A program made the translations under genes and the position numbers. From positions 303 through 34,800 of IMG/VR virus record IMGVR_UViG_3300028496_000004: DNA of 34,498 bases; one strand, given 5' to 3'. A model generated the notes under the pieces. It saw nothing but the letters and a program-made list of their open reading frames with translations, was not told where the DNA came from and did no database searches. Shown one piece after another: positions 6,757 through 34,498 of the stretch. Positions within the stretch are counted from its first letter, which is position 1; each line of letters starts with the position of its first letter. This DNA comes from a virus.

Positions 6757-6901
6757 CGACCGGCCACGCAGAGTGGAGGATGTCGAGGGTCCGCCAGCAG
6801 CACTACTCACACTGGTCGAGCACCTCTGCATTGACGGCACCATCAAGGACGGCACCAGAGAGAAGTGCTGTCTCGCCGAATGGAAGGCGGCGGGCGCATG
6901 A
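6749..6901 (+). CDS. Small hypothetical protein
   Basis: A 50-codon frame starts at an ATG that overlaps the lipoprotein stop by eight bases and ends in TGA at 6899-6901. The product is mostly helical, with a C-terminal Cys pair (REKCCLAEW). It fits the dense packing of the operon and fills what would otherwise be a gap. A further 11-codon frame at 6898-6933 (MKQIILCPECR) overlaps its stop and looks like a remnant of a zinc-finger gene. Neither is recognised. Confidence 0.5.
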   Translation: MADDRPRRVEDVEGPPAALLTLVEHLCIDGTIKDGTREKCCLAEWKAAGA

Positions 6902-6945
6902 AGCAGATCATCCTGTGCCCTGAGTGCCGGTGAGGGTGACCGAAG

Positions 6946-7209
6946 GTGGATGAGTGGACGCAGGAGGAGATGTTTCCGGTGCCGAAGGCGTATCGACCCA
7001 AGAGGAAGGATGCCGACCCCAACGTCGTGCGCTGGACGAAGTTCACCGGTAGGAGGATGTCCTGCGACATCTGCATCCTCAACATCTACAACGGCGTGCG
7101 AGAGTTCGGCCTCTCGCACGCCACCAAGGTGGCCACCAAGGGTGACCGCAAGTGGCACCTGTGCTCGCGGCACGCGATTCAGGTCAAACAGGGAGAGAGG
7201 AAGATATGA
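6946..7209 (+). CDS. Small zinc-finger-like protein
   Basis: This 87-residue basic protein has a CDIC knuckle near residue 59 and HLCSRH near residue 79, which could coordinate one zinc. It resembles short phage zinc-finger proteins but has no HNH core. It starts at GTG 6946 with GAGGG upstream and ends in the ATGA overlap with the next gene. Its basic, Lys/Arg-rich composition would suit DNA or RNA binding. Function unknown. Confidence 0.6.
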   Translation: MDEWTQEEMFPVPKAYRPKRKDADPNVVRWTKFTGRRMSCDICILNIYNGVREFGLSHATKVATKGDRKWHLCSRHAIQVKQGERKI

Positions 7210-7448
7210 ACGAACCACAGGAGTGCGGGACCACAGGGTGTAGCGCCGAGGCAGTCACGGCCATCATGACGACGACACCCAAGAGCAGGAGCGGGCTGAT
7301 CACCACCATCTACCAGTTCGAGGAGGACGCTCCCAAGAAGGCTGTGCGGTACTGCGGTCCCTGTGCGGTACGCCTTGCCGCTAGCCTGACCGCACTCACT
7401 GACGGAGACATCAAGGTCAGCGTCATCGCAGAGGTGGTCCCGCGATGA
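7206..7448 (+). CDS. Small Cys-containing protein, hypothetical
   Basis: The 80-residue product begins MNEPQECGTTGCSAEA and has CGPCAVRL near residue 54, so it carries two Cys pairs (C-x4-C and C-x2-C), a pattern of small treble-clef or ribbon folds. The ATG at 7206 is chosen over an in-frame upstream one because GGGAGAGAGGAAGAT precedes it and it overlaps the previous stop. It overlaps the following gene by ATGA. No function can be assigned. Confidence 0.6.
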   Translation: MNEPQECGTTGCSAEAVTAIMTTTPKSRSGLITTIYQFEEDAPKKAVRYCGPCAVRLAASLTALTDGDIKVSVIAEVVPR

Positions 7449-30058: not shown

Positions 30059-31750
30059 TCAGGCTCCGACCGTGTTGCAGTCGACGATGTTCGCAGCACC
30101 GGTGCGACCGGCGTTGCAGACGGGCACGGTCAGCAACTTCGATGGGAGGCAGTTCTTGACGACGAGGTTGCCCTGCTCGGTGAACAGGCCGGTGTACTCG
30201 TTGGCCGAGATGCTGGCGGCGTCGTAGACGTTCTCCAGCGTGATGACGTCGGCGGTGCCACGGACGAACGCACCAGCGGGGTACACCAGCATGTCGAAGG
30301 TTGCCGGGTACTCCAGCGCGTTGTCCGGCAGCGGCTGCCAGTTGTAGACGTACTGCACCCGGCCACCGCGAGCGGCGAAGTGGCGAGCGAGAACTGCGTC
30401 GGTGATCTCGTCGTTCTGCACCCCGGTGCGCAGCGAGTAGTCAGCACGGAGGGCGGCGCGGACCCAGTGCGGGACCACGACCTCCAACGTCTGGCCGAGG
30501 CCGAGACGGTACAGACCACGCTGCGACTCGATGATGAGTTCGAGCGAGGAGAGCGTGTTGTACGCCGTGGAGCCGATGGCCGGGACCGCGATGGCCGCAC
30601 CGGAGAGGCCGACCATGCGACCGAGGGTGTCGGCAGACATGCGGTGCTCGTGAGCAATGAGCGCACGCTGCACGACGTTCTTGGTCAGTTCGGGGTACGC
30701 GGCGTTCTGGAGGAAGCCGAACTTCAGGCAGAGGTAGATCGCGTCGAGGCGCACCTCGGTGAAGGGCGGGCAGGTGACCGTGTAGCAGGTCTTGGTGGTG
30801 CCTGCAATGGCCTGCACCTCGGTCTGGATGCCGGTCGCGTTGTAGAGGCCGGTGAAGTCGGGACCGGAGGTGTAGCGCATGCCGCCACGCTTGACCCCAA
30901 TCGTCGGGAGGTCGATGAGACCGTCCGTCGTCTCGATGTCACAGAGGTCGTAGTTGATCTCCGACGGGGCGCACCAGCCGCCAGCGGCGATGAGGCTGCC
31001 ACCGTCGAGGTTCTTCTCCGAACCAGCGGACGCGATGATCGAGAACACCTTGTCCTCGTGGTCCTCCATGGAGACCGTGTCAGCGAAGTCGGTGCGCACG
31101 ATCTGCGCGACACCGAAACGCTGGAGCGGTGCACCCTCGACCGCGACAGCCGGGGGCTGCGACGGCAGGCTCTTGGCGCGGGCCATTACGGCTGCGGTCA
31201 GAGCGTCGATGTCGGGGATGTCGGAGCCTGCGGCGATGCCGGAGACGTCAGCAGCAGCGACGATGGCGTAGGTCTTCTCGCGCTCCTCCTCGGTCTCCTT
31301 GACGACGGGGCGAGGGGTCTTCTTCGCCAGCCGCTTGCGAGTGCTGGTCGTGGATGCCGTCACGGCACCTCCTTCGGTGTCGTCCTCGTCCTCCTCGGAC
31401 TCGGAGTCGGTGTCGTCGGCAGCGTCTTCGCTGTCGTTCTCGTCCTCGTCCTCGTCGTCGGACTCGGCGTCACGCGCCTCGTCGTCCTCGTCGGTCTCGG
31501 GGTTCTGGTTGGCTGCGGTGGCGCGGGCCTCGCGCAGTGCGGCCATGCGCTCGGTAGCGCTGCTGCGCTCCGTCTGCTCGGCGGCGATGCGGGTGAGGGC
31601 GGCGTCGAGGCTCTCGGCCTCGGCAACCTCGGCAGGCGTGGCTGCGTCGAGTGCGAGGAGCACGTCAAGACGCTCATTGGCCTGCGCGGCAAGTGCGGTC
31701 AGTTCGTCGATGCTGTACGACGTCATGTCGTCGTTGAGGTTGAACTCCAC
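30059..31750 (-). CDS. Major capsid protein with acidic scaffold-like N-terminus
   Basis: The 563-residue protein has two parts. Residues 1-75 are helical and coiled-coil (SIDELTALAAQANERLDVLLA), then about 40 residues are almost all Asp, Glu and Ser. Residues 150-563 resemble the HK97-fold capsid protein of actinophages (GWCAPSEINYDLCDIETTDGL; a long C-terminal domain ending in TVPVCNAGRTGAANIVDCNTVGA). The N-terminal part would serve as a scaffolding delta domain removed by the protease encoded upstream. The GTG at 31750 is chosen because AGGAG lies eight bases before it; the TTG at 31798 lacks this. Confidence 0.85.
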   Translation of the reverse strand: MEFNLNDDMTSYSIDELTALAAQANERLDVLLALDAATPAEVAEAESLDAALTRIAAEQTERSSATERMAALREARATAANQNPETDEDDEARDAESDDEDEDENDSEDAADDTDSESEEDEDDTEGGAVTASTTSTRKRLAKKTPRPVVKETEEEREKTYAIVAAADVSGIAAGSDIPDIDALTAAVMARAKSLPSQPPAVAVEGAPLQRFGVAQIVRTDFADTVSMEDHEDKVFSIIASAGSEKNLDGGSLIAAGGWCAPSEINYDLCDIETTDGLIDLPTIGVKRGGMRYTSGPDFTGLYNATGIQTEVQAIAGTTKTCYTVTCPPFTEVRLDAIYLCLKFGFLQNAAYPELTKNVVQRALIAHEHRMSADTLGRMVGLSGAAIAVPAIGSTAYNTLSSLELIIESQRGLYRLGLGQTLEVVVPHWVRAALRADYSLRTGVQNDEITDAVLARHFAARGGRVQYVYNWQPLPDNALEYPATFDMLVYPAGAFVRGTADVITLENVYDAASISANEYTGLFTEQGNLVVKNCLPSKLLTVPVCNAGRTGAANIVDCNTVGA

Positions 31751-32095: not shown

Positions 32096-34498
32096 TCAGC
32101 CTTTCATCTCGGCGCGTCGAGCGCGTAGGCGCTCCATGCGTGCAGTGGTGTACTTGCGCCGGAGTGCAGCCATCTGCTGCTGCGCCTCGCGGCTCTCGAT
32201 GGTCTCGATGACCACGCTCTTAATCTGGTCCACGGTCATTCCGATGTGGCGCGGCGGGACGATCCCGGCAGCCACCAGCGACGTCTGCTCGCCTGCTGAT
32301 GCGGCGAGCGCCACACGCGGGATCGGGAAGCCGGGGACGTTGACGGCCAGTGCCGCGATCATCTCCAGTGAGCCACCGATCTCGCGCCAGTCGCCGGAGA
32401 GTGCAGCGGTGCGCAGCGCGTAGACCTGCTCCTCACTGGCGTAGGGGTTGACCGCACCAGCGATCCAGATGCCGTACTTGTCCTCGCCCGCCGAGACGTT
32501 CGCGGCGTTCGTGCCGGTGTTGTCGTAGTGCGCGAGTGCAGCCTTGGCCTTGGCCTTGATGTCGGCGTGGCCGGTACCCACGGTGAGCGCACCGGTGGGG
32601 ACGGTCCCGCCACCCTCGACCGGCGTGGCCCCGGTGCGGAAGTAGGCGTACGCCGTGGGACTCGACGGCGGGGTGACGCACTTGTCCGCGAAGCCGATGT
32701 GGCAGGTACCCCACGTCGCGACGTGACCGAAGACCCGACCGTCCTCGGTGATGGTCACTGGGGTGGGTCCGTCAAGTTCCGGGTCGAGGAACCACTCGGC
32801 GGGTGGCGGCTTGACCTTCCCACCTGAGGCGGTGATGAAGGTGATGGCAGGACGCATGGCCTCTCCCTCGGGGGCGCTCGCGGTGATGGTGTCGCCCGAG
32901 ACGGGACGTCCCGGCCAGAAGCCGAGCGCGTCGTAGTGACGGTTGGCGCAGTAGCCAGACAGGTGCTGCGGCTTGACGTACTCCGCGAGCAGAGTGCGAC
33001 AGCGGTTGAAGTCGCCGGGCACGCCCCAGTTGATCTTTGCAGCGCCGGGTCCACGGACCCAGTAGTCGCGCAGGCGGTCGGTGTCGACCGGGTGCGTGAG
33101 CCAGCCCGGCCCGTCCTCGGTCTTGACGAACGCAGCAGCGGACAGCGGCTCGGCCTCCTCGGAGACCTCCTGCTCCGCGATGGACTCCACCACGAGGTCT
33201 TCACCGTCCTGCGGAGCGAACTCCTCGGGGACGTCACCCACCTCCACGAACGCTTGGTGGAAGGCGGGGATGTGGCAGCAGGTCGCACCGCTGATGCGAG
33301 CCGACTCGAACACGGTGATCATGTCCTCGTCGGGCCCGTTGAACAGCATGTCGAGCATGTCGCCCTCGTCCTCCATGCCCTCCTCGGCCTCGGCCATGAC
33401 GTCCTCCATCGACCTGCCGTCGCGGGTCTGCATGGAGATGACACCGCTGTCGTCGGCGTCGACAGAGACACCGATGCGGCCACCGGCCTCGACCATGAGG
33501 CCGAGCAGTTCGTCGACCTCGGGTACGACGGTAGAGAAGTGGCCTGAGGCGTAGGCCATGCCGTTCTTGCGCCACGTCCGCTCGATGTTGCCGACCTTGA
33601 CGCTGGAGTCATGGCCCTCCTCGTTCACGCGCTGGAAGGCCAGTGGCAACGGCAGTGGGCGCGAGCGCAGGGAGTCGGTGGCGAACAGGCGTCGGTCGCC
33701 GGACTCGACGTTCTCGGGGGCAAGCACACCCCAGAACGGGACAGCAGCGTCCGTCTCCAGCCGGGCGTCCGGGGGCAGGGGGGGTGGAGCCTGCTCCTCG
33801 TCGTCCTGCACGACCTCAGTGGTGCCGTCGTCTGCCATCTCTGCTCCCATTGGGTAGATGTTGCTGTGGTCGTCTCCGACCCATAGTGCCAGCCTGTCGA
33901 ATCGGACGACAGTAGGAACCTCACCGTCGGCGGCGGGCTCCTCGGGGTAGCCGAGCGTGACGTGAGGCGTCCAGTTCGGGAACTGCTCGACCGCATTCAT
34001 GGCATCGGCTATGACCTGCTCCTCGATGAGCATGTCGCGCAGCGGGATCAGCGGCTCACTGTCGAGGAACAGGACATCGGCCTCATCGTCTCCGAGGGTG
34101 CCGCGCTCCTTGACCCCAGCCTCGACCGGCTGGAGCGTGGGCGCGATCCTCTCCAGCGCGGCGCTGATCGCGTCGATGTCAGCCACGGACTCGTCGCCAC
34201 TACCGAACCACACCGTGGTGATGTGCGCGTCGTCCTCGCTGCTGATCTCGTGGATGCCGCTGATCTCCTCCGGGAGCATCACGATGAGTGCACCGTCGTG
34301 AGCCATGTCCGCAGCAGCGACCATGGCCTTCTGTGCGGACAGCGCGACGATGCAGCGGCAGTTGTGTACTATCAGACCATTGGCCGCATAAGCGCCGGTC
34401 TCCGTCGAAAGGTTGTAGACGTGCCCCTCCCAAGTTTCGTCCCTAACGACCCGGACTACTGGGTCCGCCACGTCCGCGGCGCCGTGCGGTTCGCCGAC
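32096..34498 (-). CDS. Head morphogenesis fusion: MuF-like/2H phosphoesterase/capsid maturation protease (5' partial)
   Basis: The frame is open to the window edge, so the N-terminus is missing. Counting from GTG 34471, residues 1-37 end an intein (GHVYNLSTE...GLIVHN). C-R-C at 38-40 looks like the NCRC end of a MuF-type domain. Residues 58-185 carry two H-x-T motifs (HITTVWFG at 83 and HVTLGYP at 170), the signature of 2H/LigT phosphoesterases. Residues 225-400 resemble a prohead maturation protease (LPLAFQRVNEEGHDSSV; GRIGVSVDADD). Residues 480-791 form the large C-terminal domain seen in actinophage capsid proteases. It processes the head shell. The enzyme domain inside is unusual. Confidence 0.7.
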   Translation of the reverse strand, partial: VGEPHGAADVADPVVRVVRDETWEGHVYNLSTETGAYAANGLIVHNCRCIVALSAQKAMVAAADMAHDGALIVMLPEEISGIHEISSEDDAHITTVWFGSGDESVADIDAISAALERIAPTLQPVEAGVKERGTLGDDEADVLFLDSEPLIPLRDMLIEEQVIADAMNAVEQFPNWTPHVTLGYPEEPAADGEVPTVVRFDRLALWVGDDHSNIYPMGAEMADDGTTEVVQDDEEQAPPPLPPDARLETDAAVPFWGVLAPENVESGDRRLFATDSLRSRPLPLPLAFQRVNEEGHDSSVKVGNIERTWRKNGMAYASGHFSTVVPEVDELLGLMVEAGGRIGVSVDADDSGVISMQTRDGRSMEDVMAEAEEGMEDEGDMLDMLFNGPDEDMITVFESARISGATCCHIPAFHQAFVEVGDVPEEFAPQDGEDLVVESIAEQEVSEEAEPLSAAAFVKTEDGPGWLTHPVDTDRLRDYWVRGPGAAKINWGVPGDFNRCRTLLAEYVKPQHLSGYCANRHYDALGFWPGRPVSGDTITASAPEGEAMRPAITFITASGGKVKPPPAEWFLDPELDGPTPVTITEDGRVFGHVATWGTCHIGFADKCVTPPSSPTAYAYFRTGATPVEGGGTVPTGALTVGTGHADIKAKAKAALAHYDNTGTNAANVSAGEDKYGIWIAGAVNPYASEEQVYALRTAALSGDWREIGGSLEMIAALAVNVPGFPIPRVALAASAGEQTSLVAAGIVPPRHIGMTVDQIKSVVIETIESREAQQQMAALRRKYTTARMERLRARRAEMKG
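34361..34498 (-). other. C-terminal end of an intein
   Basis: The last 46 intein residues in the window end in VHN followed by Cys, the splice block of Hint-type inteins (penultimate His, terminal Asn, Cys as +1 extein). The strand VYNLSTE and the ANGLIVHN end are typical. The rest lies off the window, so an associated homing nuclease cannot be judged. Splicing would fall immediately before the C-R-C of the MuF-like region. Confidence 0.8.

Follow-up and report, generated by a model that had tools for sequence, protein, structure and literature searches.

The head polyprotein gene and its neighbourhood

The viral DNA analysed here (the window; 34,498 nucleotides), which comes from an actinobacterial phage, corresponds to positions 303-34800 of a 43,165-base IMG/VR virus record and carries, on the minus strand at its end, the rear part of a gene for a head polyprotein. 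The reading frame (34498-32096) is open at the window edge, and its 800 codons in the window encode the end of an intein, the end of a MuF domain, a 2H phosphoesterase domain, a protease domain, a small domain, a C-terminal domain, and a coiled coil. The product matches PHROG families of head and packaging proteins, and its relatives are annotated as "capsid maturation protease and MuF-like fusion protein". The major capsid gene (31798-30059, minus; phrog_777) lies downstream; portal-like and terminase genes are located upstream, outside the window. The features are listed here in the direction of the gene; the broad and narrow versions of the putative processing motif are defined further below.

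32096-34498, minus: head polyprotein gene, rear part
34352-34423, minus: C-terminal block of the intein, HVYNL...LIVHN, ahead of the conserved MuF motif CRC (TIGR01443, 18.5 bits; cut-off 15.6)
34310-34324, minus: putative site MVAAA, directly before the 2H domain in a low-pLDDT stretch; fits the broad motif, not the narrow one
33851-34294, minus: structured core of the 2H phosphoesterase domain (residues 69-216 of the protein; from PF13563, AlphaFold, and fold matches)
34217-34225, minus: catalytic motif 1, H92-I-T94; H and T kept in 78/78 relatives
33956-33964, minus: catalytic motif 2, H179-V-T181; H kept in 78/78 and T in 77/78 relatives
33209-33778, minus: prohead (capsid maturation) protease domain; Ser345 invariant (29/29)
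33131-33145, minus: putative site LSAAA, between protease and small domain, in a low-pLDDT linker
32894-33094, minus: small mobile domain, phrog_6439 (YWVRGPGAAKINWGVPGDFNRC...), present also in other positions and proteins
32873-32887, minus: putative site ITASA, in a low-pLDDT linker
32822-32836, minus: putative site ITASG, before the C-terminal domain, in a low-pLDDT linker
32309-32818, minus: C-terminal head domain, common to protease proteins without a 2H domain
32264-32308, minus: two putative sites, LAASA and LVAAG, in a low-pLDDT linker that leads to the C-terminal coiled coil
30980-30994, minus: LIAAG (in LIAAGGWCAPSE), at the boundary of delta-domain and N-arm of the major capsid protein; conserved in 13/13 capsid proteins

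The original prediction had placed the 2H domain between the MuF-like end and the protease region, and this order is correct: the MuF domain lies just past the window edge (PF04233, E 1.6e-6; 29.2 bits, slightly under the cut-off of 29.6), and a gp21-like protease follows the 2H domain. A scaffold gap of ten Ns separates the window from the MuF domain, which is also interrupted by the intein. In this genome, both intein and gap stand between MuF and 2H, whereas relatives such as L001 and Squash gp25 encode an uninterrupted MuF and 2H in one frame. The gap (L007:2502-2511), at which the window stops, has the same 19 bases on either side (cgacccggactactgggtc) and probably hides a small overlap.

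The MuF intein sits exactly at the conserved INCRC motif, which is uninterrupted in relatives, and its N-terminal half extends from L007 3223 downward (minus). Just outside the window, an endonuclease-like ORF (L007:2624-3163, plus) lies antisense within this intein; it matches PF18741 with an E-value of 3.7e-7, below the curated cut-off, and has tblastn relatives in 126 phage records from Actinobacteria and Proteobacteria. In the three cases inspected (Gordonia Vivi2, Idiomarinaceae 1N2-2, and Pseudomonas BR313c), the ORF again runs antisense inside an insert that resembles an intein and occupies this site in MuF. Both strands of the pair are conserved, and the antisense ORF possibly encodes a homing endonuclease. 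The gene of the terminase large subunit (L007:5915-8071, minus) likewise contains an intein, with an HNH endonuclease ORF (6882-7340, minus) in a different frame on the same strand. Elsewhere in the window, a tail-region protein (26945-25410, minus) matches the phage "phosphodiesterase" family phrog_17803 (E 1.8e-69); it possibly serves to cleave cell-surface polymers.

The 2H phosphoesterase and prohead protease domains

The two H-x-T motifs reported 87 residues apart are indeed present, as H-I-T (34225-34217, minus) and H-V-T (33964-33956, minus). The domain matches PF13563 (2_5_RNA_ligase2) with 42.4 bits (E 9.5e-11), and the whole ORF does so with 38 bits, against a curated cut-off of 27; relatives are encoded in 222 phage records (E<0.01). 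An alignment of 20 relatives from phage and IMG/VR records, which aligned cleanly, was enlarged by 57 non-redundant IMG/VR domains for a conservation count over 78 sequences, in which both motifs are complete in 77 relatives at identities down to about 21%. The family score, the number of phage records, and the retention of the motif residues together argue that the motifs are not due to chance.

The 2H fold, which a structural model could have contradicted by lacking it, was borne out by an AlphaFold (AF2) model of the domain (mean pLDDT 91; input 58 sequences) that matches LigT, CPDase, VP3 PDE, Usb1, and Acb1 with Z-scores of 8-13. The region proposed for the domain (33900-34320) was the right one, although its limits are slightly shifted relative to the structured core (34294-33851). 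The closest solved structure is the Arabidopsis CPDase 1jh6 (Z 12.9; 2.6 A over 135 residues), followed by YjcG (11.7), rotavirus VP3 PDE (11.5), human Usb1 (about 11), and LigT (10.7); the lowest values quoted are those of penguinpox cGAMP PDE (8.9) and Acb1 (8.4). In a sequence-profile search of the PDB, penguinpox cGAMP PDE is the top match (E 3.5e-5), with motif 2 aligned. A specific tie to the anti-CBASS protein Acb1, which had been mentioned among the enzymes of this fold, was not supported: the score with PF23474 is 13.5 bits (24 residues aligned) against a cut-off of 27, and the Z-score of Acb1 is below those of CPDase, YjcG, and VP3 PDE. Membership in the LigT/ThpR family was likewise rejected (TIGR02258, 19.6 bits; cut-off 65.7). 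By its modelled fold and invariant residues, the domain is predicted to be an intact, catalytically competent phosphodiesterase; fold and catalytic set are sound, yet likeness of fold names no substrate. Several actinophage 2H proteins (L021, L009, L013, L014, and others) are labelled "RNA ligase" in genomes that have no matches to the Pfam families RNA_ligase and RtcB; these labels are apparently wrong and seem to go back to what the 2H family used to be called.

The protease domain (model residues 202-364) matches the prohead protease gp21 of phage T4 (5jbl; Z 9.8, 2.6 A over 120 residues) and the assemblins of herpesviruses (Z 8-9). In the protease alignment, no histidine passed the conservation filter, though the consensus has GH in the expected region. 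That phage prohead proteases have fold and mechanism in common with the herpesvirus protease is established (PMC7411985).

Fused and solo forms, putative processing sites, and a tag

Searches with each domain revealed that the usual order of the fused form is MuF, 2H, protease, small domain, and C-terminal domain. The same order, in the same neighbourhood with a portal gene before and a major capsid gene after it, is found in Squash gp25 and Hyperion gp22 (Microbacterium cluster EG) and in Wilde gp18 (Arthrobacter Tankvirus), whose 2H domains are 34-48% identical to that of the window; unlike the window protein, these proteins have no intein in MuF, and their annotations leave the 2H domain unnamed. 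Variant orders are MuF-protease-2H-small-C-terminal domain (L058 and L059), C-terminal domain-small-2H (Gordonia phage Ali17 gp16), and MuF-small-2H-protease-C-terminal domain (Streptomyces phage Abt2graduatex2 gp11). CloverMinnie gp11 and JAMaL gp9 consist of MuF, protease, and C-terminal domain without 2H, and related head proteins of Fireman and Paschalis also lack it. In phages of Streptomyces, Rhodococcus, and Gordonia, a separate protein encoded beside the terminase gene has the 2H domain at its N-terminus or close to it. Mycobacterium phage QBert and Gordonia phage Schomber have an independent 2H gene in the vicinity of the portal, and in Schomber an ADP-ribosyltransferase follows it. 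The tree forces at least three switches between the fused and the solo state, and judging from these sequences the 2H domain appears to be a modular unit of head proteins. The small domain (phrog_6439) moves among actinophage proteins; it occurs, for example, at the C-terminus of Racecar gp80 and Mareelih gp81, and also in genes distant from the head cluster. When bacterial genome contigs were scanned with a single peptide pattern, which is a loose test, no encoded relative turned up, so that there is no prophage context to draw on.

Proteins of this kind are not new. Fusions of 2H domains to MuF or portal proteins, with proposed roles as RNases or against signals, were reported by Iyer et al. 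in 2017 (PMC5512222), and their packaging and injection was restated as an idea in 2022 (PMC9503650); a MuF-protease fusion has been described for Microbacterium cluster EG, with the 2H domain unmentioned in the accessible parts of that paper (PMC7302621). The window protein therefore belongs to a known kind, and like the fusions of Iyer et al. it carries its 2H domain in a head protein for which packaging and injection have been proposed. That idea has been published before; what is added here is the processing motif and the tag: the accessible parts of the survey by Iyer et al. describe neither an embedded protease with a common processing motif nor a tagged solo form.

The broad version of the motif, [LIMF][TVAIS]A[SAG][AGSDE], was chosen post hoc after inspection of the sequences; the narrow version, [LI][TVI]A[AS], was derived from capsid proteins alone and provides the cleaner test. 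Among linkers from related proteins, which are not independent, the broad motif is present in 20/30 between MuF and 2H (2.0 expected by shuffling), 9/36 between 2H and protease (1.7 expected), 16/25 between protease and small domain (2.7 expected), 24/26 between small and C-terminal domain (2.1 expected), and 17/17 between protease and C-terminal domain (1.5 expected). The narrow motif, again counted in related sequences, occurs in 16/27 linkers between MuF and 2H (1.2 expected), 7/33 between 2H and protease (0.5 expected), 20/24 between small and C-terminal domain (0.7 expected), and 10/10 between protease and C-terminal domain (0.5 expected). Where the motif precedes the C-terminal domain, it may owe its conservation to that domain. 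Each of the six broad-motif sites of the window protein falls at pLDDT<50, where 0.26 are expected and six were reached in none of 2000 composition-matched shuffles.

The motif also recurs at the capsid maturation boundary, where it is found in 13/13 capsid proteins, mostly as L[VTI]AAGGW. Its recurrence both there and in disordered linkers suggests a self-processing of the polyprotein. Herpesvirus proteases favour (V/L/I)-x-A before S; their cleavage consensus was sought in PMC4498786 and is not printed in the accessible part of that paper. N-terminal sequencing of the LittleE capsid protein placed processing a few residues before GGYAVP, near the position of the motif but not identical to it (PMC3706429). 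No cleavage site is given in the Rosebush capsid paper, and the PDB, searched for a mature N-terminus, contains no sequence relative of the capsid protein. The window protein has no motif between 2H and protease, so a release of the 2H domain alone is not predicted for this phage.

The solo form is distinguished by a tag, HYGVKGMKWGVR, which resembles HYG[VI]KGMKWGVR (Pfam DUF7211, PF23847) and is present in 32/40 distinct solo 2H ORFs but in 0/44 fused ones (Fisher 5e-16, on related sequences). Among the eight untagged solo ORFs, two are truncated where their contigs stop, and a third bears the tag in a variant spelling. Four tagged phages that were searched carry 2-8 copies per genome, mostly near gene starts and close to terminase and portal, compared with none in nine phages with the fused form. 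The tag is common to several small genes near terminase and portal (L009, L010, L011, L015, and L060-L104); L082 encodes a GNAT acetyltransferase between two copies, and the tag-bearing family phrog_35934 is annotated as a virion structural protein. A search of the available papers for GMKWGVR or DUF7211 in a phage context found neither. In phage T4, Alt and the internal proteins are loaded via a short targeting peptide, trimmed by the gp21 prohead protease, and injected (PMC7411985); with this precedent, a loading tag is the natural reading of the DUF7211 sequence. The analogy suggests that the tag is a candidate head-loading signal, and the distribution of the two forms suggests that fusion and tag could represent two routes for loading one enzyme.

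Possible functions of a head-borne 2H domain

We give roughly even chances to the reading that the 2H phosphodiesterase is cargo of the phage head, borne by a polyprotein, cut by its protease, and delivered with the DNA to cleave a phosphodiester before the phage is expressed. The enzyme would be made within the polyprotein of MuF, 2H, prohead protease, and C-terminal domain, whose MuF and protease parts would carry it into the procapsid. There, the built-in protease of the herpesvirus/T4 type would most likely cut the polyprotein within its disordered linkers, at sites of the form [LI]-x-A-[SA], alongside the capsid protein; in the phage of the window, these cuts would separate the 2H domain from MuF, while its link to the protease would remain. 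The enzyme would stay in the head, enter the cell with the DNA, and use its two-histidine site to cleave a phosphodiester before phage genes are expressed. The target would most likely be a nucleotide alarm with a cyclic or 2'-5' linkage, and otherwise RNA. The domain, its fold, the invariant catalytic residues, the architecture, and the motif statistics are direct observations; cutting by the protease, presence in the virion, ejection, and the substrate are steps that we infer from them.

Packaging and injection of the domain are plausible. Alt and the internal proteins of T4 follow a similar route: they are taken into the prohead, trimmed there by a protease homologous to that of the window, and injected (PMC7411985); they differ in that Alt is a different enzyme with an N-terminal targeting peptide, the place of which would be taken here by the fusion to MuF or, in the solo relatives, by a different tag. 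A nucleotide alarm, cyclic or 2'-5'-linked, is in our judgement somewhat favoured over host RNA as the target, since it is on such signals that other viral 2H enzymes with a tested function act; the pigeonpox homologue of penguinpox PDE degrades 2',3'- and 3',3'-cGAMP (PMC11410667). Acb1 and the cGAMP PDE of avipoxviruses are viral and have a 2H fold, as the domain of the window has, but the poxvirus PDE is a separate protein, whereas the 2H domain described here is part of a head polyprotein. CPDase, YjcG, and LigT provide the closest solved folds but are cellular enzymes. Acb1, too, is a separate protein and not part of a head polyprotein.

If the enzyme is indeed packaged and injected, it might act on host RNA instead of a nucleotide alarm, as an RNase or an RNA end-processing enzyme of the Usb1/Mpn1 type. 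The model matches Usb1 structures with Z-scores near 11, and Iyer et al. suggest that 2H domains fused to MuF could act as RNases, on the grounds that other MuF fusions carry RNases (PMC5512222). Since CPDase, YjcG, and VP3 PDE match equally well or better, and the sequence does not discriminate between the two classes of substrate, we consider this reading unlikely. A removal of 2',3'-cyclic phosphates that allows tRNAs cut by anticodon nucleases of the host to be rejoined would correspond to the classical 2H reaction, and some homologues are annotated as "RNA ligase". However, matches to RNA_ligase (PF09414) or RtcB (PF01139) are present in 0/15 phages with the 2H domain, RNA_ligase is absent also from the window's own partial record, and the window contains no tRNA genes. 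A full repair of cut RNA is therefore unlikely, which weakens the original suggestion of a defence against tRNA-cleaving systems insofar as it involves repair, and we regard RNA repair as very improbable.

The position of the 2H domain midway in a head assembly protein, and the purely morphogenetic annotation of many related MuF-protease proteins, would also fit a domain that acts in assembly only, with a structural or regulatory task in the procapsid, and never reaches the cell. Such a role is doubtful in view of the invariant active-site residues, the related head proteins that do without the domain (CloverMinnie gp11, JAMaL gp9, Fireman, and Paschalis), and its occurrence as a separate gene. 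The domain might also be catalytically dead and serve only to bind nucleotides or RNA; head proteins do contain inactive enzyme domains, such as the inactive PBECR domain reported from MuF of phage Mu (PMC5512222), but the double H-x-T is retained in 77/78 relatives down to about 21% identity, and we give this reading hardly any credence.

Returning to the delivery of an active phosphodiesterase by the head, a more general scheme can be put forward, tentatively and with somewhat less than even chances: lytic phages of Actinobacteria would have two interchangeable ways of getting one anti-defence 2H phosphodiesterase into their heads, either embedded in a polyprotein of MuF and protease, which would process itself at [LI]-x-A/[SA] sites that are herpesvirus-like and serve in capsid maturation too, or as the product of a separate gene with a general head-loading tag that is common to other predicted cargo, such as the GNAT acetyltransferase. 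If the enzyme is delivered by the head, it would act before phage expression, when a rapid defence by nucleotide signals would otherwise have the lead. Motif and tag would make injected cargo other than DNA predictable from sequence, with each tagged or site-flanked protein being a candidate, and might serve to load chosen proteins into the heads of actinophages.
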